Source of the DNA: a virus
Reading direction: 5' to 3' (one strand)
Virus record (IMG/VR): IMGVR_UViG_3300032334_001972
Span: 1 to 21,826 of that record
DNA length: 21,826 nt
Part shown: in pieces, positions 3,732 to 19,341 of the stretch
Numbering within the stretch: the stretch's first letter is position 1
Layout of the letters: each line of letters starts with the position of its first letter
The notes under the pieces: generated by a model
The model's input: only the letters and a program-made list of their open reading frames with translations
The model's database searches: none
What the model was told of the DNA's origin: nothing
Program-made: the position numbers and the translations under genes

Positions 3732-3739
3732 TATTTATA
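3732..3739 (-). promoter_or_regulatory. Late promoter (TATAAATA) fused to a terminator T-run
   Basis: This is a perfect TATAAATA on the minus strand, 21 bases upstream of the ATG at 3710. Its first T belongs to the T-run of the terminator just upstream (3739-3763). Confidence 0.8.
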
Positions 3740-4007: not shown

Positions 4008-5408
4008 TCAACGATGCCAACTAGGTCTTTCACCATGATTGCGTTTTGGTCCAGTTGGTTTCCATCCTTTGGGTTTTTTAGGTCCTTCACCAGTAAAAGA
4101 TTTTTTTGATTCTTCTTCTTTTTTTTCTTCACCTTCAACAATACTCTCTCTCCACTCTTCACTCATATTTGCCATGATTTGGAGTGCTGCCTGTTCAGTA
4201 TCAGCATAACCTTCATCAATCAGGTGTCCTAATACAACATCAAATGGATCAAAACTTTGAGTTAATCCTTGACGTTGGCGTGATGCTGCTTGCATTGCAC
4301 GAAGTTCTGCATTTTGTGATGCCAAACTTGGTCTACCAGTAATTGGAGGTAATGCGGGTGGTCTCAGTGGTGGATTACCAGTTGTTACAGTTGGTGCTGG
4401 AGTTGGTTTTGCCGCAACAGTAGGTGCTGCTGGTCTTGTTGCAGTGGCCGCTGGTGTTGCAGTTGGTGCTGGAGTTGGTTTTGCTGCAACAGTAGGTGCT
4501 GCTGGTCTTGTTGCAGTTGGTGCTGGAGTTTTTACTTGTGACGATGGTGCTCCATATCTACCAAATTGACCTGTGCTTTGTCCAGTTGGTTTATTCAATG
4601 GTTCACCAGCACCAACTTTTCTAGAGATTTCAATTTCTTGACCAATTCTACGACCAGCTGCTCCAGCAGCTCCAGCAACTGCAGATCCTGCTCTTTGAGC
4701 GGCACCAGCAACTGCTTGACCTGCTCTTTGAGTAGCACCAACTGCAGCTTGTCCAGCAGCGGTAGCACCACGAACTGCTCCCTGAGCAGCTCCTTGAACT
4801 GCTCGTCCAGCAGTATTTAAAGCACTTTGACCAGCAGAAACTGCTCTTTGGGCGGTTCCTTTAACTGCTTGAGCAACTGGAGTGACTGCTCTCTGAACTG
4901 CTCCTCCTGCTCTTTGAGCAGCACCTGCAACTGTTTGACCTGCTCTTTGAGCAGCACCAGCAACAGCAGTTCCTGCTCTTTTAACAGCGCCAACTGCAGT
5001 CTGACCCGCTCTTACAGCACCTCCTACAGCACGATCTGCGCCACTAGCAACACTTCTTACACCACCAGCAACAGCAGATCCTGCTCTTTTAACTCCACCG
5101 ATTGCAGTGTTAGCAAGATTTTGGAAGAAACCTGCTTCCATCAAATATTGCTCGTCAAGAACGCCAGTTTCGAAAAGAATCGAATCAATATCTTCTACTG
5201 CCATTTCTGACATATAAACTTCAGCAGTATTATATCCTGGAACAAATCCATTATATACAAGATAATCTGCAACAGTTTGATATGCTTCAGAAATAAATTC
5301 TTCTGTTAGATATGATTCCCAGAGATAATCTTCATTAACTTGTGGAGCATAAACTGCATTATATGCTTCCATCAAATCAACTACCTGATGTGATGTAATT
5401 CTTTCCAT
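4008..5408 (-). CDS. Ala-rich virion/internal head-type protein (466 aa), paralog of the 444-aa protein
   Basis: The order is: acidic N-terminal segment (1-91); a long Ala/Gly/Arg stretch (about 100-255) built from repeats like AGAAQRAGQTVAGAAQRAG; a Pro/Thr/Ala linker (about 285-360) with PTVAAKPTPAPT repeats; a conserved C-terminal motif (about 395-430) of F-D-x-F-D-V-V-L, G-Y-A-D-T, M-x-x-M-S-E-E-W; and a basic tail. Candidate gp21-type cleavage sites are L-M-E|A (12-15), I-S-E|A (39-42) and L-M-E|A-G (89-93), so the acidic segment may be removed during head maturation. The basic repeat region could then bind packaged DNA. It shares its plan with the 975-2309 protein. No enzyme signature is seen. 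It lies between a terminator/late-promoter module and another terminator. Confidence 0.8.
   Translation of the reverse strand: MERITSHQVVDLMEAYNAVYAPQVNEDYLWESYLTEEFISEAYQTVADYLVYNGFVPGYNTAEVYMSEMAVEDIDSILFETGVLDEQYLMEAGFFQNLANTAIGGVKRAGSAVAGGVRSVASGADRAVGGAVRAGQTAVGAVKRAGTAVAGAAQRAGQTVAGAAQRAGGAVQRAVTPVAQAVKGTAQRAVSAGQSALNTAGRAVQGAAQGAVRGATAAGQAAVGATQRAGQAVAGAAQRAGSAVAGAAGAAGRRIGQEIEISRKVGAGEPLNKPTGQSTGQFGRYGAPSSQVKTPAPTATRPAAPTVAAKPTPAPTATPAATATRPAAPTVAAKPTPAPTVTTGNPPLRPPALPPITGRPSLASQNAELRAMQAASRQRQGLTQSFDPFDVVLGHLIDEGYADTEQAALQIMANMSEEWRESIVEGEEKKEEESKKSFTGEGPKKPKGWKPTGPKRNHGERPSWHR
4388..4530. repeat. Coding direct repeats in the Pro/Thr/Ala linker
   Basis: Two 58-base copies (4388-4445 and 4460-4517) differ at one visible base and have a 72-base period. 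A third partial copy starts at 4514. They encode the PTVAAKPTPAPT-type linker. The periods (72 and 54) keep the reading frame, which suggests growth by in-frame recombination. Confidence 0.7.
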
Positions 5409-11927: not shown

Positions 11928-13682
11928 TCAATCAGACTCGCCTGCTCTTGGTCTATATGGATCTGGTTGATTTCTTTGTCTTTCTGCTTGTGCTTTTTTT
12001 GTAGCAAGTTTTTTAGCAGGTAAATTTGATGGTGATTCTGGTTCAACACGACTTGTACGATCTTTTTTTACACCTCTTCCTTCCTCATGTTTAGCAACCG
12101 TTTTTCCACTTCTGGTCAGCAGACCTTCTTTATTTTTAGATCTTATATCCATCATAACTTTATGTGTGATACTTTTTGTATCAGGTCTAGATTTACCTCT
12201 ATCTTCTCTCCTTCTCTCATCAATCATTTCACCCTCAAATTCAACTTCTTCAGGTCTATACTTATCTCTTCTTGCTTTTTGTGCTTCAGGAGACATATTT
12301 GCTGGTTGAAGTACAGAACGAACTGCTCCCTTCACTGCTTTACCAACTGGATCTGCAACATTCTTTTGGAAATTTTTTGCTCCTTGTTCAGCAGAAGTTC
12401 TTGGATTCGAAAGAGCACCTCCAACAAGTTTAGAAATTCCAACACTTAATCCAGCACCCTCCTTAACATCTTCTTCGTCTGAAATCATTACAATAGGATT
12501 TTTAATACCCAGTCCAGATCTTAATTTATTTTTAATTACCTCTTTCTTAGCATAATCTCCCCTAGTATCTCTTTTTGGTTCAGAAGAATCACAAGCAGTT
12601 TCTTCTTTATGAACAGGAAGTCCTTCATGTTTTGTTTTAGCAAAATCACGAATTTTTTTCTCTGACATATTATCAACGATTTTTAAAACTTCAGCACTTG
12701 CTTCAGAACGCGGAGTTTCTCCTCTTTTAACAGAAAGAGCAAGTCCAAAAAGTTTTTGTTGTTGTTCACTTTCTGCTTTCTCATTTAAATTGCGAACTTT
12801 ATTGAGAAACTTAGAATAACTATCTTCCGAAATACCCATTTTAGGGGAAAGATTTATAATCCTTTTATTTGTCCCCTTCATTACGTTTATGGGCGTATCC
12901 TTAGAATTTTTTTTTTCTTTTACTACTTCACCAATAAATTCTTCTTTAACGCTTGAAGTGTCCTTACCATCAGGAGTTCCACCTTTTTTGCGTTGAATAG
13001 CATTATGGACTGCTCCACGATATTCTTTTGCACCACTTTCTACTTTTCCATCTCCATCATAATCTTTACCAGATTTTGCTGCTGCTGTTCTTTCACCTTT
13101 TGCCCTTTCACCTTCATATGGAGTTCCATATTCAGTCATTTCAACCGATTCAATATTTGGATTTGAACGAAGTTCTGAAATTTTTTGGCGATTTGCATAT
13201 CTAACGTAAGATACGCCGTTTTTATCAGTAACTCTAACTTTATATTTCTTATCTTCAGAATTATTATACTTATTTAAATGTGCTTTCAGTTCTTCAATAT
13301 ATTCTTCAGAATCTTCAGAATAATGCTTAGAATTTCCTTCTACAAAAACTTTAAATAACGCATTTGCAACACTAGTTGATGCCAATTGTTCAATATTAAA
13401 ATCCTCTGCTTTCATTCCACCTTCGGAAAAAAGTGCCTTTCTTACTTCTAATTTTTCCGATTCAGACATAGAACTATTTTGCATGTATTGCGAATATGCT
13501 TGACGAAGAGGAATACCTTCTCTTCTTGCACGATATCTAATATCATACTTTGCCTGCCTAACTCTAGCTTCTGGGGTTTTTTCTTCGCGGTCACTTTCAC
13601 CGTCATTAGACTTTGATTGTACTGATAGTGAACTTTGAGGATGCTTTCTTGCAGGAAGTTCCTCAGAAATATGATTTTTCAT
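11928..13682 (-). CDS. Modular virion-type protein with DxDxDG loop and DUF3008-like domain (584 aa)
   Basis: This is a large, charged, mostly disordered protein with recognisable islands. Residues 39-85 are a basic helical module with ARVRQAKYDIRYRARREGIP. Residues 145-192 are a beta/alpha module containing VSYVRYANRQKISELR. Residues 207-216 (DYDGDGKVES) form a calcium-binding-like DxDxDG loop followed by GAKEYRGAVHNAIQRKKGG. Residues about 304-358 (QQQKLFG ... DFAKTKHEGLPVH) resemble the bacterial DUF3008 family. The C-terminal part (about 400-584) is basic and helical. Such modules recur in cyanophage proteins annotated as structural. The N-terminus has I-S-E|E, only a weak processing-site match. 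Late promoter CATAAATA lies upstream. It is probably a virion or internal protein; enzyme activity is not evident. Confidence 0.78.
   Translation of the reverse strand: MKNHISEELPARKHPQSSLSVQSKSNDGESDREEKTPEARVRQAKYDIRYRARREGIPLRQAYSQYMQNSSMSESEKLEVRKALFSEGGMKAEDFNIEQLASTSVANALFKVFVEGNSKHYSEDSEEYIEELKAHLNKYNNSEDKKYKVRVTDKNGVSYVRYANRQKISELRSNPNIESVEMTEYGTPYEGERAKGERTAAAKSGKDYDGDGKVESGAKEYRGAVHNAIQRKKGGTPDGKDTSSVKEEFIGEVVKEKKNSKDTPINVMKGTNKRIINLSPKMGISEDSYSKFLNKVRNLNEKAESEQQQKLFGLALSVKRGETPRSEASAEVLKIVDNMSEKKIRDFAKTKHEGLPVHKEETACDSSEPKRDTRGDYAKKEVIKNKLRSGLGIKNPIVMISDEEDVKEGAGLSVGISKLVGGALSNPRTSAEQGAKNFQKNVADPVGKAVKGAVRSVLQPANMSPEAQKARRDKYRPEEVEFEGEMIDERRREDRGKSRPDTKSITHKVMMDIRSKNKEGLLTRSGKTVAKHEEGRGVKKDRTSRVEPESPSNLPAKKLATKKAQAERQRNQPDPYRPRAGESD
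12907..12916 (-). other. Ten-base homopolymer inside a coding region
   Basis: Ten consecutive T on the plus strand (ten A in the mRNA) encode Glu-Lys-Lys-Asn near residue 258 of the 584-aa protein. Such a run is prone to polymerase slippage or sequencing error, either of which would shift the frame. The frame as given is intact. Confidence 0.6.
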
Positions 13683-13698
13683 GTGAAAATTTAATTTA

Positions 13699-15033
13699 CT
13701 ACTTTTTTTTCCTATTCTTATTTATGAAATTCTTTATATGAGATATTCCCATCACTTTCATAACATTTTTTCTATACCCATCTGTACCAACTAACGTATT
13801 TGGTTTATTCGGTAGTCTCATAATTCTGGACATACTTTTTTCATTATAAGATTCTGAAACGTCCTTTATCCAAGATTTAAACATCATTCCATTTTCAGTC
13901 ACACAAATTAAATAGTTTGTTCCCCTACGAATAATTTTACCAACCATTCCAGTATTAATATTTTCAACTATTTCTCCAATATTAAATATATTTTTTTTGA
14001 TATAGTTTTCTCTCAAAGATTGAACATCAAACTTTGGGGCAATCTCCCAAATATTGTACCCTTCCTGTTGTATATCCAAAATTTCCATTCCTTGACGTAC
14101 CATATCAAATAATTGAATTACTTCTTTATTTGACATTTCTGTAGGAAGTCCTTGACGGAAAGTAATAAGATCACCTTCTGCTGCTGCCAATCTTAGTCTT
14201 GATGCAGATATTGCTTCAAGACCATCTCCATCAGGATCTCTTTCTCCAGCAGAAATAACTTGAATATTATCAAATTGGTATAATTGTCCATTATAGTTAT
14301 TGGAAATTTTTTCAAATTCCTTAACTCTATCTGAACCAGAAACAATTATAATATCTGCATATCCATCATTGTATGCCTTTTTCAATACATCAAAAATAGT
14401 AATAAAATTTGGATCATTTACTATTCTTTCACTATGATCTGGAAAAATTTTTCTCATTATTGAGATTTTTGTGTCAGGATCTAATGGATTTTTCTTTTTA
14501 TCTTGACTACGCGAAGGAACAATTATGTAATCTCCACCACTTTCCATTGCGGTATCATATGCAACATCCATCAACTGTTGATGCCCAATAGTAGGAGGAT
14601 TAAAACGCCCAAAAACAACCACCAAAGTTCCTTTGGTTTTTTCAACTGGTTGAGGAACAAATTCTGGAGTTTGAATCTGATTTTCTACATTTGGATCAAC
14701 TACTGTCTGATCTAGTGGCACTTGATCAATTGCTACCTGGTCCATAGGTACTTGATCTGTAGGAGGTGCGATGGGTTGTTGTGCAGGTACTAGTTGTGGA
14801 TCCACATAACCTTTAGAAGCAATTTCCTTTTCTCTTGGAGTTTGTTTTGGATCCTTCCCAGGAATTCGCTGCCTCTTATTATAAAATTGTAGTTTTCCGT
14901 TCACGGTTTTTGCTTCAAATTCGCCGGTAGCCCTATTATACCATCCCCCATGCCCATCTGGGGCAAGTGCCAAGCGTTTTGCTTGATCGGATGCGGCAGT
15001 TGCTTCCTTTAGAAATGTAAAATAATTTTTCAT
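13699..15033 (-). CDS. Cytidylyltransferase-fold (NMNAT-like) protein with capsid-targeting-like N-terminus (444 aa)
   Basis: Residues 1-11 (MKNYFTFLKE|A) match the T4 internal-protein targeting peptide and L-x-E cleavage rule. Residues 22-60 are a small module (GGWYNRATGEFEAKT) that I associate with cyanophage virion proteins. Residues 93-112 contain a DQVPx-type pentapeptide repeat in a Pro-rich linker. Residues 136-295 are a nucleotidyltransferase domain with GRFNPPTIGH (142-151, the T/HxGH motif) and ISASRLR (275-281, the ISxSxxR-like motif). A C-terminal part near 345-390 looks SH3/KOW-like, and the tail is basic. The family joins nucleotides to phosphorylated substrates (NMN, phosphopantetheine, choline phosphate); the substrate here is unknown. 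The start codon overlaps the upstream stop (TAATG). The likely-active domain behind a head-targeting leader is unusual. Confidence 0.85.
   Translation of the reverse strand: MKNYFTFLKEATAASDQAKRLALAPDGHGGWYNRATGEFEAKTVNGKLQFYNKRQRIPGKDPKQTPREKEIASKGYVDPQLVPAQQPIAPPTDQVPMDQVAIDQVPLDQTVVDPNVENQIQTPEFVPQPVEKTKGTLVVVFGRFNPPTIGHQQLMDVAYDTAMESGGDYIIVPSRSQDKKKNPLDPDTKISIMRKIFPDHSERIVNDPNFITIFDVLKKAYNDGYADIIIVSGSDRVKEFEKISNNYNGQLYQFDNIQVISAGERDPDGDGLEAISASRLRLAAAEGDLITFRQGLPTEMSNKEVIQLFDMVRQGMEILDIQQEGYNIWEIAPKFDVQSLRENYIKKNIFNIGEIVENINTGMVGKIIRRGTNYLICVTENGMMFKSWIKDVSESYNEKSMSRIMRLPNKPNTLVGTDGYRKNVMKVMGISHIKNFINKNRKKK
13719..13726 (-). promoter_or_regulatory. Late promoter (CATAAATA) for the 584-aa gene
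   Basis: CATAAATA on the minus strand is one base from consensus. It lies 36 bases before the ATG at 13682, inside the last codons of the 444-aa gene. Confidence 0.55.
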
Positions 15034-15308
15034 TATCTATTTGATATTTTACTTAAAATATTTAAAGTTATCATTTTTTTATTTTTGATAATATATTCTA
15101 ATATATTTGCTCTGATCATTATATATTTATTCTTTACTACAGTTGATCCAATATTTTTTAATTTACCATCAAAAATAAAATAAAAATATGCCAAAAAATC
15201 TTCAAATATTTTTTCCTTAGACTGAAATTTAGTATTATAAAATTTTAAAAATTCTCCTAAAAGATTATTAATTACATCTTTTTCAGAATTATTCCCAAGT
15301 ATATTCAT
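15033..15308 (-). CDS. AT-rich protein of unknown function (91 aa)
   Basis: The frame from the ATG at 15308 encodes 91 residues, starting MNILGNNSEKDVINNLLGEF and ending ILSKISNR. It is rich in Ile, Asn, Lys and Phe and predicted helical, with no signal peptide or clear membrane span. The frame is open further upstream, but those codons lie in the tRNA-Leu gene, so the ATG after the tRNA is the better start. The stop overlaps the start of the nucleotidyltransferase gene (TAATG). Its composition is visibly more AT-rich than the replication genes, which suggests recent acquisition. The family is not recognised. Confidence 0.7.
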   Translation of the reverse strand: MNILGNNSEKDVINNLLGEFLKFYNTKFQSKEKIFEDFLAYFYFIFDGKLKNIGSTVVKNKYIMIRANILEYIIKNKKMITLNILSKISNR

Positions 15309-16098: not shown

Positions 16099-17475
16099 TT
16101 AAAATTTAAATCCTTCGAACGATTTTTTAGGTTTGTTTTCTTCATAAGTATACTCTTCTTCTTGTCCACTGTCAAGTATGTCTTTTTGTGCGGATTGCTC
16201 CACATCATAAAGTCTCATCTTGGCACGATCAATACCAACAACAAAACGCTTAAAGATTGTTGGGTCATTATAACGGTTCTTCAGTTGTTTTACAAGAATT
16301 TGTCCCAACCCCTCCAACTCTTCAGTACTAATAAGGGCAAACATAAGATCAGCAGTAGCAGGGAGACCAAAGGACTCACTAGTATCAGTAAGTTCAACAT
16401 CAGAGTTCCCATAACCACTGCGGGTAGTCTGGGTAGCAGAGACAATGGGAACATTGAATTCCACTGCCAGACCGCGAAGTTCCTCTGCAATTGACTTAAT
16501 ATACGAATAAGAATTGACAGAACTATTTGCTTTATGCCTAGAGGAAGCACAAATATTAAGGTAATCGATGAAAATAATATCAGGTCTAAATGACTTCTTA
16601 AGAGCAAGTTCATTGAGAAGCGCCTTAAAATGACCGGAGTGTGCCGAAGCAGTTGGATACTCTTTAATTATAAGAGTTCCTTGGGTTTTTTTTGATAAAC
16701 TTGTTACCTTTGTCTCAAATGTTGAACGTGGAAGATCAACCAGTTGCTGAATCGGGACATTGAGAAGGTTTGCATCAATTCTTTCTGCAATTCGCTCTTC
16801 CGCCATTTCAAGAGTGATGTAGAGAACGTTCCTACCCTGTAACAACGCGGAACTAGCAACATGGCACATGAACAACGATTTCCCAACACCCGTTCCAGCG
16901 AGAGCAATATTGAGAGTCTTGTTAGGTAAACCACCTTTCGTGATTTTGTTGAAATATTCCAAGTCAAACTCAATTTTATCTTCTTTACGGTGGTAAAATT
17001 CATAACGCTCCTCATAATTCTGAAGATAATCGTGTCCAATATTATTATCAAATGATACTGCTAGAGCATCAGAAAGAATACTCGGAATTGCATCACGATT
17101 TTTCTTCCCATCATTACCATCGGCAATATGAATAGATTCCATAAGTGCTAGGTAAATAGCACGATCACGACACCACTTTTCTGTGGTATCTAATAACCAT
17201 TGCTTCTCCACTACAGAATTATTCAGGCTTTCACACACCTCACGAATATCTTTAACATCCGTTTCAGTTAAATCAGTCCGATTCTCAATCTCAATACCAA
17301 GTGCTTCTTTGGTGATTGCAGAATTATACTTTACAATAAACTGAACGATTTCCTCAAAGACTACTTTTTCAGATCTTTGCTCAAAATATTCTGGTTGTAT
17401 GAAGGGTATAACTTTTCTAGAATAATCTTCATTATATACAAGATTTCGGAGAATCGTAAGTTCAAGTCGTTCCAT
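16099..17475 (-). CDS. 41: T4 gp41-type replicative DNA helicase
   Basis: This is a DnaB-family hexameric 5'-3' helicase of the phage replisome (458 aa), partner of the gp61 primase. The N-terminal helical domain spans about 1-150. The RecA-like core has Walker A GTGVGKS (194-200), the TLEMAEERIAERIDA helix (221-235) and Walker B IIFIDYL (300-306). ATQTTR (about 345) and the loop DTSESFGLPATADL are also visible. The C-terminus is acidic then basic (KPKKSFEGFKF), possibly a docking tail. Its start overlaps the glycosyltransferase stop (TAATG). Length and motifs are normal for the family. Confidence 0.95.
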   Translation of the reverse strand: MERLELTILRNLVYNEDYSRKVIPFIQPEYFEQRSEKVVFEEIVQFIVKYNSAITKEALGIEIENRTDLTETDVKDIREVCESLNNSVVEKQWLLDTTEKWCRDRAIYLALMESIHIADGNDGKKNRDAIPSILSDALAVSFDNNIGHDYLQNYEERYEFYHRKEDKIEFDLEYFNKITKGGLPNKTLNIALAGTGVGKSLFMCHVASSALLQGRNVLYITLEMAEERIAERIDANLLNVPIQQLVDLPRSTFETKVTSLSKKTQGTLIIKEYPTASAHSGHFKALLNELALKKSFRPDIIFIDYLNICASSRHKANSSVNSYSYIKSIAEELRGLAVEFNVPIVSATQTTRSGYGNSDVELTDTSESFGLPATADLMFALISTEELEGLGQILVKQLKNRYNDPTIFKRFVVGIDRAKMRLYDVEQSAQKDILDSGQEEEYTYEENKPKKSFEGFKF

Positions 17476-18347
17476 TAAGGTAAAAGAAATTGTTTTACTC
17501 TGGGCAATTCAAAAATTATTTGGGGAAGATTTTCAATTGGATATTTTCTCAATACATAATTTTCATTACTGAAATATATTGATTCTGGACTAATTGCACC
17601 TTCTTTCGGTTCATAATATTTCATAGATTCTACCAAATTATTCGAATAATGGCAAAAAGATTTTGCTTTTATTATTCTATTAACTGTATCACCCATCCAA
17701 GTAAAATGCCATCCAAGATCCGTAAGAACTTGATTGTTTTGTGTGGCATAAGTAACTCCAAATGGAAGATTATATTCTGCTCTAATTTGAGTGGGAAAAC
17801 ACTTTTGTAAATGATGCTTTAAGCACATATACATTGATTTGTTCCAAGGTTTTTCAACAGAACTGTTGGAATAATATGTCCTTAAATCCGCTCTTCCTTC
17901 CAAAAGAATCAACGGAACTTTTATAACAGAATTATACTGATATTTTAAAATATCACTTAAAAATTCTATATTAATTGGATTTATTATTTCATCACAATCC
18001 GATACAATGAATACATCATTATCATCAAAATTATCTAAAACTGATAAAATTCCATCTCTTTGTAAACGTTCTCTGCTCCCCAATATGGCATCACTATTCC
18101 ATAATTTATCATATTCATCAGAGATTGGCAAGTTTTCGTCAGATAAATCAAGTTCAATAACTTCAATTTTGTCTGATACTAATCCAAGATCTGAAATAGT
18201 TTGTTTGCATGTAAAAGGTTTTTGAATACCACTATGAGTATAATTTGCATCAAAAATTAAAAATTTATCGACATAATCATTTAAAATATTAATTCTTAAT
18301 TCCAAAATTTCCTTTTCATTAAAATATGGAAAACAATCAATTACCAT
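17475..18347 (-). CDS. Family 17-like glycosyltransferase
   Basis: Start at the ATG 18347 (290 aa), chosen over an upstream TTG at 18368 because AGAGG precedes it and it begins directly with the family motif. Residues 1-20 ([17 protein letters not shown]), about 34-43 ([11 protein letters not shown]), D117-C-D-E120 (the metal/sugar-nucleotide acidic cluster) and GWHFTWMG (212-219) match the GT17 layout, whose known members add beta-1,4-GlcNAc. The acceptor here is unknown; host surface glycan, phage protein or DNA are all possible. It sits between uvsX and gp41, overlapping uvsX by 11 bases and gp41 by one. It looks more AT-rich than both neighbours, suggesting an acquired cargo gene. Confidence 0.85.
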
Positions 18348-19341
18348 AACTAAATTGACCTCTAGCAATCACATCAAGTTTTTGCATTACTTCTTCGGTG
18401 AAGTATTCTTCAGGATTTGCTAAAATCTGTTTCGCATAAATCTTTTTACCATCCATCTCATAACGTCCTGCGACGTTTTTCCACATTCCACCAAGTTCAC
18501 CCAATTCAAGCAAACCATAATACCTATCAAGACCACGCTCATCATAATAAAGACGAACTTCAACATCTTGATTCTCTTTACTTAAACGCGACTTAGCAGT
18601 CTTTGCCTTGATAATGTTTCCGATGACTTCTGTTCCATCCTTTTCCTTTTTCTTCGATAGATGAATAATGGTAGAAGCAGCGTACTTAAGACCACTACCA
18701 CCTCCCATCTCTTTAGTAGGAACATAAGCACCAATAACATCGTAGGTATGATTTGTTACAATCATTGGAATGTTTGCTTGACCCAGTTTCAAAGTGAGCA
18801 TACGGAATGCACCTTTAATGAGTTGAGATTTGGTCATATCTCTAGTTTCTTTATCATTCAAGGCATCATTAATCTCTTTACTTGTAGAAAGCATTCCCAA
18901 AGAGTCTAGCACAAACATACAAGGACTGCGTTCTCCTTCTGGTTTCTTCAGATAAAGATCAACTGCTTTCAGTGCCTTACCACGAAATTCTTCAACTGTA
19001 ACAACATTAACAACAACAAGACGTGATGTGTCAATTCCACGAGATTCTAAAAGTGATTTAGTGATAGCAGCCTCAGTGTCAAAATAGAGACAGTAACCAT
19101 TGGGATTAGTATCAAGAAAGTTCTTAACCACGGCGAGAGAGAAAAAAGTCTTTCCAGTAGAAGACTCTCCAGCAATAGCAGTAATCTTATTACCAGATAC
19201 ACCACCAAATATACTACCTGAAACCAATGCATTAAAGATGTATGAACCCGTATCAACATAAGTTTCAGTCTCATCAATATCTGAGGCAAGTTGTGTATAC
19301 TCACCACCAATTTCTTTTACAATATCTTTAAGAAAGTCCAT
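18337..19341 (-). CDS. uvsX: UvsX recombinase (RecA/Rad51-like)
   Basis: This is the phage strand-exchange protein that coats ssDNA and drives recombination-dependent replication and repair (334 aa). The start is the ATG at 19341 ([15 protein letters not shown]), one base after the stop of the upstream gene; an in-frame TTG at 19356 is less likely. Walker A GESSTGKT is at 58-65 and Walker B MFVLDSLG at about 142-149. [21 protein letters not shown] is the DNA-binding loop region. The length is slightly below T4 UvsX (about 390 aa), as is usual for cyanophages. The last codons overlap the glycosyltransferase start. Confidence 0.95.

Follow-up and report, generated by a model that had tools for sequence, protein, structure and literature searches.

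The window considered here, the whole 21,826-nucleotide stretch of the IMG/VR virus record IMGVR_UViG_3300032334_001972, carries on its minus strand a gene for a 444-residue nucleotidyltransferase that begins with a short leader similar to the capsid-targeting sequence of phage T4 (Table 1). The leader MKNYFTFLKE with its following Ala and the motifs GRFNPPTIGH and ISASRLR, which a preliminary description of the locus had singled out, are all present as quoted. The frame opens with an ATG at position 15033, and the plus strand of the same interval is closed by stop codons when read in one frame. Five parts can be distinguished in the protein, namely the leader, a small N-terminal module, a variable linker (residues 56-130), the nucleotidyltransferase domain and a C-terminal beta domain. 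Mean column conservation in the family alignment is 0.30 in the linker versus 0.69-0.79 in the three domains, and outside the nucleotidyltransferase domain strong conservation is found at residues 12-55 and 351-394.

The enzyme is the core "cytidyltransferase" of the T4-like cyanophages, PHROG 395 or T4-GC190. It matches PHROG 395 with an E value of 2.5e-94 and the Pfam family CTP_transf_like (PF01467) over residues 140-242 (E 1.5e-6, 28.9 bits, cut-off 21), and the profile score, both sequence motifs and the fold place it in the CTP_transf_like superfamily. The domain had been described as an intact nucleotidyltransferase domain of the HxGH type; it is indeed intact, but the catalytic motif spells T-I-G-H, the TxGH variant of the (H/T)xGH signature. 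Matches to the enzyme were found in 532 of 50,697 phage records, 462 of which are named Synechococcus, Prochlorococcus or cyanophage, and the source virus probably infects cyanobacteria. S-SRM01 carries the nearest named relative among the matches listed (66% over residues 1-422), and the orthologues in S-SM1, S-SCSM1 and S-CREM2 show 39-50% identity to the window protein. Sequence searches against solved structures returned weak matches alone (best E 0.83 and 0.21), and PADLOC gave no match for the enzyme. The nucleotidyltransferase shares a module of about 40 residues (A..LGL..DGHG.W.D....VAKT..G.L) with a kinase-like protein, which has two copies, and with a PHROG 3561 protein; both of these are present in the virions of S-CREM2 (L002:10579-12846 and L002:7704-10313). 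An alignment of the module showed no segment sufficiently conserved for a search.

Table 1. Positions of the enzyme gene, its parts and other features in the window.
Feature	Positions	Strand	Basis or remark
Nucleotidyltransferase gene, 444 residues; PHROG 395, PF01467, T4-GC190 orthologue	13699..15033	minus	frame and profile matches
Capsid-targeting-like leader MKNYFTFLKE, residues 1-10; predicted cut Glu10/Ala11	15004..15033	minus	sequence comparison
Small N-terminal module, residues ~13-55; predicted helix and strands	14869..14997	minus	
Nucleotidyltransferase domain, residues 134-319	14077..14634	minus	
TxGH motif GRFNPPTIGH, residues 142-151	14581..14610	minus	
ISxSxxR motif ISASRLR, residues 275-281	14191..14211	minus	
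Conserved C-terminal small beta domain, residues 355-394	13852..13971	minus	
Candidate late promoter AATAAATA, ending 90 nucleotides before the enzyme ATG	15124..15131	minus	
Downstream neighbour	11928..13682	minus	PHROG 3326 match, as S-SCSM1 virion protein 92
Second leader protein, MKSFSQFLQE then S, 453 residues	2349..3710	minus	S-SRM01 homologue 73% identical
TATAAATA, 21 nucleotides before the second leader gene	3732..3739	minus	

In T4, targeting to the capsid depends mainly on residues 4 and 7 of the leader and processing on residues 8 and 10, with cleavage after L/I-x-E, according to the accessible text of a review (PMC9026906). The internal proteins IPII and IPIII both start with MKTYQEFIAE followed by Ala in the T4 record, and the window leader is identical to theirs at positions 1, 2, 4, 7, 10 and 11 and conservative at position 8, which bears out the closeness to T4 noted in the preliminary description. 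Tyr4 and Phe7 occupy the targeting positions, and Leu8-Lys9-Glu10 followed by Ala11 agrees with the L/I-x-E rule. The two systems thus share a ten-residue MKxYxxF(I/L)xE followed by Ala, with the same critical positions 4, 7, 8 and 10; however, the T4 cargoes are small and basic, whereas the cargo here would be a large enzyme with a recognised fold, and its cleavage is predicted.

The leader was searched for with the pattern M-x-x-[FYWLIM]-x-x-F-[LIVMF]-x-E, which was set on the four positions given for T4 in the review and later widened in its letters at positions 4 and 8. Its conservation was followed in 158 family loci from IMG/VR, 80 from a first search and 78 from a second, wider search (80 rows minus one duplicate and one whose contig ends inside the gene), with a few contigs in both. 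The pattern was present in 80/80 and 73/78 loci, respectively, figures that favour leader bearers because both searches retained the top-scoring matches of full length, and the leader was among the six search patterns of the first. Three of the five exceptions retain a comparable site, F-I-K-E-A in two leaders shorter by one residue (L210 and L211) and I-Q-E at residues 11-13 in L163; the others are L173 and L218. Among 99 distinct strings of the first 14 residues, including that of the window, residue 4 is F in 94 (F, Y or L in 98), residue 7 is F in 98, residue 10 is E in 95, and Ala follows at residue 11 in 80 and Ser in nine; positions 4, 7, 8 and 10 are kept while positions 3, 5, 6 and 9 vary freely. 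The named relatives start with MKKFSAFLNE-A (S-SM1), MKKFSAFLSE-A (Syn9), MKSFSQFLTE-T (P-SSM2), MKNFHQFITE-A (S-SRM01), MKNFSSFLTE-A (S-CREM2) and MKSFLQFLKE-A (S-SCSM1).

The leader is separable from the enzyme, since it stands almost directly ahead of the nucleotidyltransferase domain in three loci (L228, L229 and L231) and is missing from bare-domain relatives, including four stand-alone proteins in phages of Escherichia, Klebsiella, Pseudomonas and Xanthomonas. Two large phages of non-cyanobacterial hosts have a gene with a DNA methyltransferase annotation, of the N-6-adenine type in one of them, and the end of this gene overlaps the stand-alone domain (L098:3489-4540 and L099:781-1850). 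In S-SM1, a separate gene with a KWDGAPA stretch overlaps the start of the enzyme gene.

Orthologues of the enzyme have already been found in virus particles. The putative citidylyltransferase T4-GC190, a number also carried by the S-SM1 gene record, was listed as part of the cyanophage core and detected in S-SM1 virions (Sullivan et al. 2010, PMC3037559, accessible text). ORF91 of S-SCSM1, called an NMN adenylyltransferase (NMNAT; NMN, nicotinamide mononucleotide), was detected in virions, and its gene sits among clustered genes for virion proteins without an assigned function; the paper, which in its accessible part also cites S-CBWM1 and another estuarine phage, proposed that the enzyme is injected and alters NAD (PMC9602691). 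ORF154 of S-CREM2 was reported with three unique peptides and 11.2% coverage (PMC10665884, accessible text). The three enzymes are orthologous to the window protein in leader and domain, S-SM1 and S-SCSM1 also share its gene neighbourhood, and virion presence is published for them whereas it is predicted here. Reviews note, in the portions available, that the capsid-targeting sequence may allow T4-like phages to pack various proteins (PMC9026906) and that the internal proteins of the T-even phages are diverse, with this sequence alone conserved (PMC3012670). The accessible parts of the S-SCSM1 and S-CREM2 papers, which propose an injected NMNAT-like virion enzyme, do not mention the leader, and the reach of the targeting sequence into cyanophages is not discussed in the available text of the T4 reviews; an open-access search for "cyanophage" with "capsid targeting" found the sole cyanophage mention of the T4 review in its reference list. 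Nor did we find, in the accessible open-access literature, a capsid-targeting leader on a cyanophage enzyme or its wide use on aquatic-phage cargo. The presence of the enzyme in virions of relatives and the proposal of injection and an effect on NAD are thus already known, and the address tag on the enzyme is, within the literature searched, new.

The two proteomes with labelled virion proteins allow the leader to be compared with packaging. S-SCSM1 has 282 coding sequences, 48 of which are labelled virion protein in the record (45 by the count in the accessible text of PMC9602691), and S-CREM2 has 219, with 52 virion proteins in Table 3 of PMC10665884, as accessible. In S-CREM2 the pattern matches gp6 (S-AdoMet lyase family PF23780), gp13, gp14, which is kinase-like, gp136 and the nucleotidyltransferase gp154; three of these are enzymes, and all five belong to the listed virion proteins (p 6.5e-4). 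This p value is not blind, as the choice of letters at positions 4 and 8 was broadened once the S-CREM2 N-termini were known. In S-SCSM1 the matches are the labelled NMNAT and the unlabelled SSCSM1_30. Pooled, 6/7 matches are virion proteins versus 100/501 proteins overall (hypergeometric p 3.3e-4; p 1.8e-3 with proteins of at least 75 residues alone), and the seventh was undetected; this comparison tested the refuting condition set in the preliminary description, the occurrence of the leader on proteins outside the head. The narrower first pattern (K/R at position 2, F/Y at position 4) gave 3/3 in S-CREM2 (p 0.013) and 1/2 in S-SCSM1 (p 0.31).

With shuffled N-termini the ten-residue pattern arises 0.07 (S-SCSM1) and 0.04 (S-CREM2) times per proteome, and these rates, together with its retention in the family loci, place the pattern beyond chance. 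A sliding version gave 1/2 and 7/8 virion proteins at higher shuffled means of 1.72 and 1.25, and a looser [LIVM]-x-E[AGS] pattern within the first 16 or so residues showed no virion enrichment (3/12 and 1/4), so that the claim rests on the spaced pattern. In S-CREM2, gp12 ("Cas9/Csn1") was considered as a leader bearer and left uncounted, with the leader-like stretch near residues 18-25 and a Met in place of Leu or Ile at the cleavage position; its label is doubtful, as no Pfam match to the protein (L002:7704-10313) was found at E up to 0.1.

Since the S-CREM2 N-termini were known before the widening, independent tests matter, and the T4, five-genome and IMG/VR leader scans were unseen when the pattern was fixed. 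Scanned in all six frames (minimum length 60 residues), T4 returned two matches, IPII and IPIII, both of which are packaged internal proteins. The S-SM1 genome gave a single match, the enzyme itself, and Syn9 gave the enzyme and a start that lies far inside another frame. S-SRM01 and P-SSM2 gave four matches each, the enzyme among them, the others in P-SSM2 being two at the starts of further frames and one at an internal position far into a frame. The "NAD synthetase" label of an S-SRM01 gene (L097:29969-30400) is doubtful, as the product, inspected by eye, resembles a GIY-YIG nuclease.

IMG/VR was then scanned with a degenerate DNA pattern that encodes MK-x-F-x-x-F-(hydrophobic)-x-E-A, and at least 120 stretches matched. 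We scored a match as a gene start when its frame had at least 60 residues, or ran off the contig, and the match lay at most 30 codons from the upstream stop or contig end. By this rule 119 of the 120 distinct matches listed are at gene starts, versus 14/53 distinct matches (79 stretches) in a complete scan with a permuted control that has the same letters in other spacing. The 120 comprise 40 proteins with the nucleotidyltransferase motif, eight with the N-terminal module only, 67 other proteins and five that are too short. The 67 include GNAT, glucosaminidase, lytic-transglycosylase-like DPBB, DUF6267, DUF5661 and DUF192 matches and three further PHROG 395 members, and their packaging is a prediction from the N-termini. 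Two leader bearers (L253:3736-4149 and L289:1211-1858) have starts that look ADP-ribosyltransferase-like by eye, with no Pfam match at E up to 0.01. The leader is also present on a DUF6267 protein itself (L240:4695-5942; a second locus, L093:4809-5783, is listed with PHROG 455).

The machinery for cleavage seems to be in place in related phages. The GELxHP and GVSSRG stretches of the gp21 protease, which we take to hold the catalytic His and Ser, are kept in all six cyanophages compared. All six also have an L-x-E site in gp23 that aligns with FLTE-A of T4, where the T4 protein is presumably cut; the next residue is Ala in four and Thr in S-SM1 and Syn9. The cognate protease and the capsid site were thus found in six related cyanophages, the window being a fragment.

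The enzyme gene also appears to be expressed late. The late promoter motif of cyanophages is NATAAATA (PMC2984593, accessible text), and we found it 10-110 nucleotides upstream of the enzyme gene in 73/99 loci versus 6/99 at 210-310 nucleotides (simulated expectation: mean 10.2, maximum 19 in 100 runs). The 99 loci are a selection among the 158 in which most contigs are represented once and have sufficient upstream DNA, and the N in the motif is mostly A. The distance to the gene is 20-27 nucleotides in S-SCSM1, S-CREM2 and S-CREM1, 43-47 in S-SRM01, 78 in P-SSM2 and 224 in Syn9. A second motif, TATAAATA, occurs at four sites in the window, all 21-31 nucleotides before genes, which start at 2309, 3710, 5408 and 11613; the count of WATAAATA over the whole window is not above chance (8 versus 5.2).

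An AlphaFold2 model of the domain has ten-residue mean pLDDT (predicted local distance difference test) values of 84-96, except for 70-76 at residues 261-280. Foldseek and VIA-align, the latter covering the top 1000 Foldseek matches, gave the best structural rows to phosphopantetheine adenylyltransferase (PPAT, CoaD) with Z 13.9 (2.8 A over 150 residues), followed by NadD (13.0) and NadM (12.4); on this model the three are practically tied, as Z values within about 1 count as ties. They share the fold over residues 134-319 (Z 12-14) and the (H/T)xGH and ISxSxxR motifs, while their identity to the window protein is 13-20% among the 50 rows listed and the latter falls well below the curated NMNAT cut-offs (TIGR00482, 18.1 versus 112.45 bits; TIGR01526, 17.4 versus 341.15 bits). 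The modelled fold class is accordingly that of the PPAT/NMNAT-type adenylyltransferases. Residues R143, N145, H151, S278 and R281 are invariant in 55 family sequences, as expected of a working enzyme, and the leaderless stand-alone relatives in other phages retain R143, N145, G150, H151, S276 and R281. Judging from these residues, the protein is probably catalytically active.

Which acceptor it uses is less clear. For the NMNAT- or cytidylyltransferase-like enzyme suggested in the preliminary description, which could act on NAD or another cofactor pool, NAD is one option among others, as the PPAT/NadD/NadM-like fold gives nearly tied scores and the NMNAT cut-offs are missed. Tentatively, we favour NMN or nicotinate mononucleotide (NaMN) as the acceptor, with a weak preference over phosphopantetheine. 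The protein may instead be packed and trimmed but act on phosphopantetheine or another non-NAD substrate, in CoA, lipid-head or nucleic-acid-linked chemistry. We consider this alternative possible, if somewhat doubtful: the PPAT rows rank first and the NMNAT cut-offs are missed by far, but the Z values are ties and the weak NCBIfam matches of the window protein are all of NMN/NaMN or generic types, with no PPAT profile at E up to 1. It is also favoured by the PHROG 455 profile, which unites a DUF6267-type part with this nucleotidyltransferase domain, and by the finding that 0/7 cyanophage genomes searched have a member of the NAPRTase/NAMPT family, which implies that these phages do not make NMN in that way and that it would come from the host.

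Another explanation is that the protein is an internal head structural protein, packed by its leader, with a domain that binds or builds the core and delivers no working enzyme. Its place among clustered virion proteins without an assigned function in S-SCSM1 and the conserved segments outside the domain would be consistent with such a role, but the invariance of the catalytic residues in the 55 sequences and their retention in the leaderless relatives make it improbable.

Several observations weigh against a packaged, NAD-directed enzyme. The leader conservation is biased towards leader bearers and the S-CREM2 p value is not blind, as described above, and the missing NMN supply enzyme counts here as well. 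S-SCSM1 alone is unenriched (1/2 matches in the virion list, p 0.31), and the pattern in T4 is specific but incomplete, as it returns IPII and IPIII alone and misses the packaged IPI, which has a longer leader, and Alt. L173 and L218 are without an L/I-x-E site, and the P-HM2 enzyme (gp163) is a bare domain with no leader. The S-SM1 enzyme gene has no NATAAATA within 250 nucleotides; TATAAATA, tried as the late promoter of the enzyme gene, was rejected in favour of the published motif, with a perfect copy in 1/78 close relatives, and it lies within 60 nucleotides in 8/119 frames of the leader scan. The protein was not recovered from S-PM2 virions according to the available text (PMC3037559), the accessible text on 14 S-CREM1 virion proteins does not name it (PMC9964418), and the accessible parts of the S-SCSM1 and S-CREM2 papers mention that abundant enzymes might be carried over (PMC9602691, PMC10665884). 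The explanation that the enzyme acts in the cell late in infection, with its virion presence a carry-over and the leader a chance or unrelated feature, draws on these last three points and on the lack of enrichment in S-SCSM1, but we regard it as very unlikely, as the leader positions are kept where T4 needs them, other, unrelated virion enzymes of S-CREM2 share the leader, the T4 pattern is confined to IPII and IPIII, and the permuted control is seldom at gene starts.

We therefore favor the hypothesis, with a probability of roughly 0.7, that the protein is a late-made, head-packed and leader-trimmed nucleotidyltransferase that is delivered with the DNA as one of many tagged cargoes. Late expression would yield the enzyme for the head, and the first ten residues, which at the level of sequence resemble a T4-type capsid-targeting sequence in each relevant test, would direct it to the prohead core. 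A gp21-type protease would then cut after Glu10 and leave the mature protein, starting at Ala11, inside the DNA-filled head, from which it would exit with the DNA at infection. In the first minutes of infection it would most likely move AMP from ATP to a small phosphorylated acceptor, and T4-like aquatic phages would use the same leader as a tag for cargo in general. Our confidence differs among these steps. The protein is very probably in the virion, quite probably because of its leader, and the cut after Glu10 is probable; delivery into the host is rather likely. The packaging proposed in the preliminary description is thus well supported by the orthologues in S-SM1, S-SCSM1 and S-CREM2 virions, by leader conservation and enrichment, by the exclusiveness of the pattern in T4 and by the gp21/gp23 rule.

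The surroundings of the gene agree with its identification. The order mazG, enzyme, gp61/primase, nrdA is found in S-SCSM1, S-SM1, Syn9, P-SSM2 and S-SRM01, and mazG, primase and nrdA frames were identified by eye in the window, in keeping with the T4-GC190/PHROG 395 neighbourhood; the gene order of the window as a whole resembles, again by eye, that of P-SSM2 and S-SRM01. The product of the downstream neighbour is probably a virion protein, and the second leader protein is probably another internal head protein. Frames beginning with MK(S/D)FSQFL were found in 7/159 IMG/VR loci, few of which extend that far. Genes for two large proteins that follow nrdB (975-2309 and 4008-5408, both minus strand) have TATAAATA 28 and 27 nucleotides upstream, respectively. 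The product of the latter starts with ...VDLMEAYNAVY and virion protein 89 of S-SCSM1 with ...NSLSEAYAAVY, and these N-termini may represent a second kind of leader, with an L-x-E then A site. A gene of glycosyltransferase family 17 (PF04724, E 1.3e-14; 17475-18368, minus strand) lies between genes that by eye resemble uvsX and a gp41-type helicase, and an Rfam scan of the window at gathering scores returned two tRNAs and nothing else.

Our findings bear on how virion enzymes of cyanophages are recognised, which in the accessible reports have so far come with the caveat of carry-over (PMC9602691, PMC10665884). With a conserved T4-type tag, a new N-terminus is expected at residue 11; this sharp prediction can be checked in existing mass-spectrometry data, and the tag provides a sequence rule by which further proteins packed into the heads of aquatic viruses can be found. 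There is perhaps an even chance that the leader is a portable tag on a large and mostly undescribed set of enzymes and effectors of T4-like aquatic phages, such that N-termini predict cargo, with the nucleotidyltransferase, the commonest in our sample, perhaps restoring the pool of a dinucleotide cofactor ahead of host defences that consume it. Alt of T4 is likewise an enzyme that is carried in the head and ejected into the host (PMC9026906, accessible text), but it is an ADP-ribosyltransferase rather than a nucleotidyltransferase, and its N-terminus is not among the T4 pattern matches. If the enzyme described here is active on arrival, infection of cyanobacteria would begin with a delivered cofactor enzyme, in parallel to Alt in T4.

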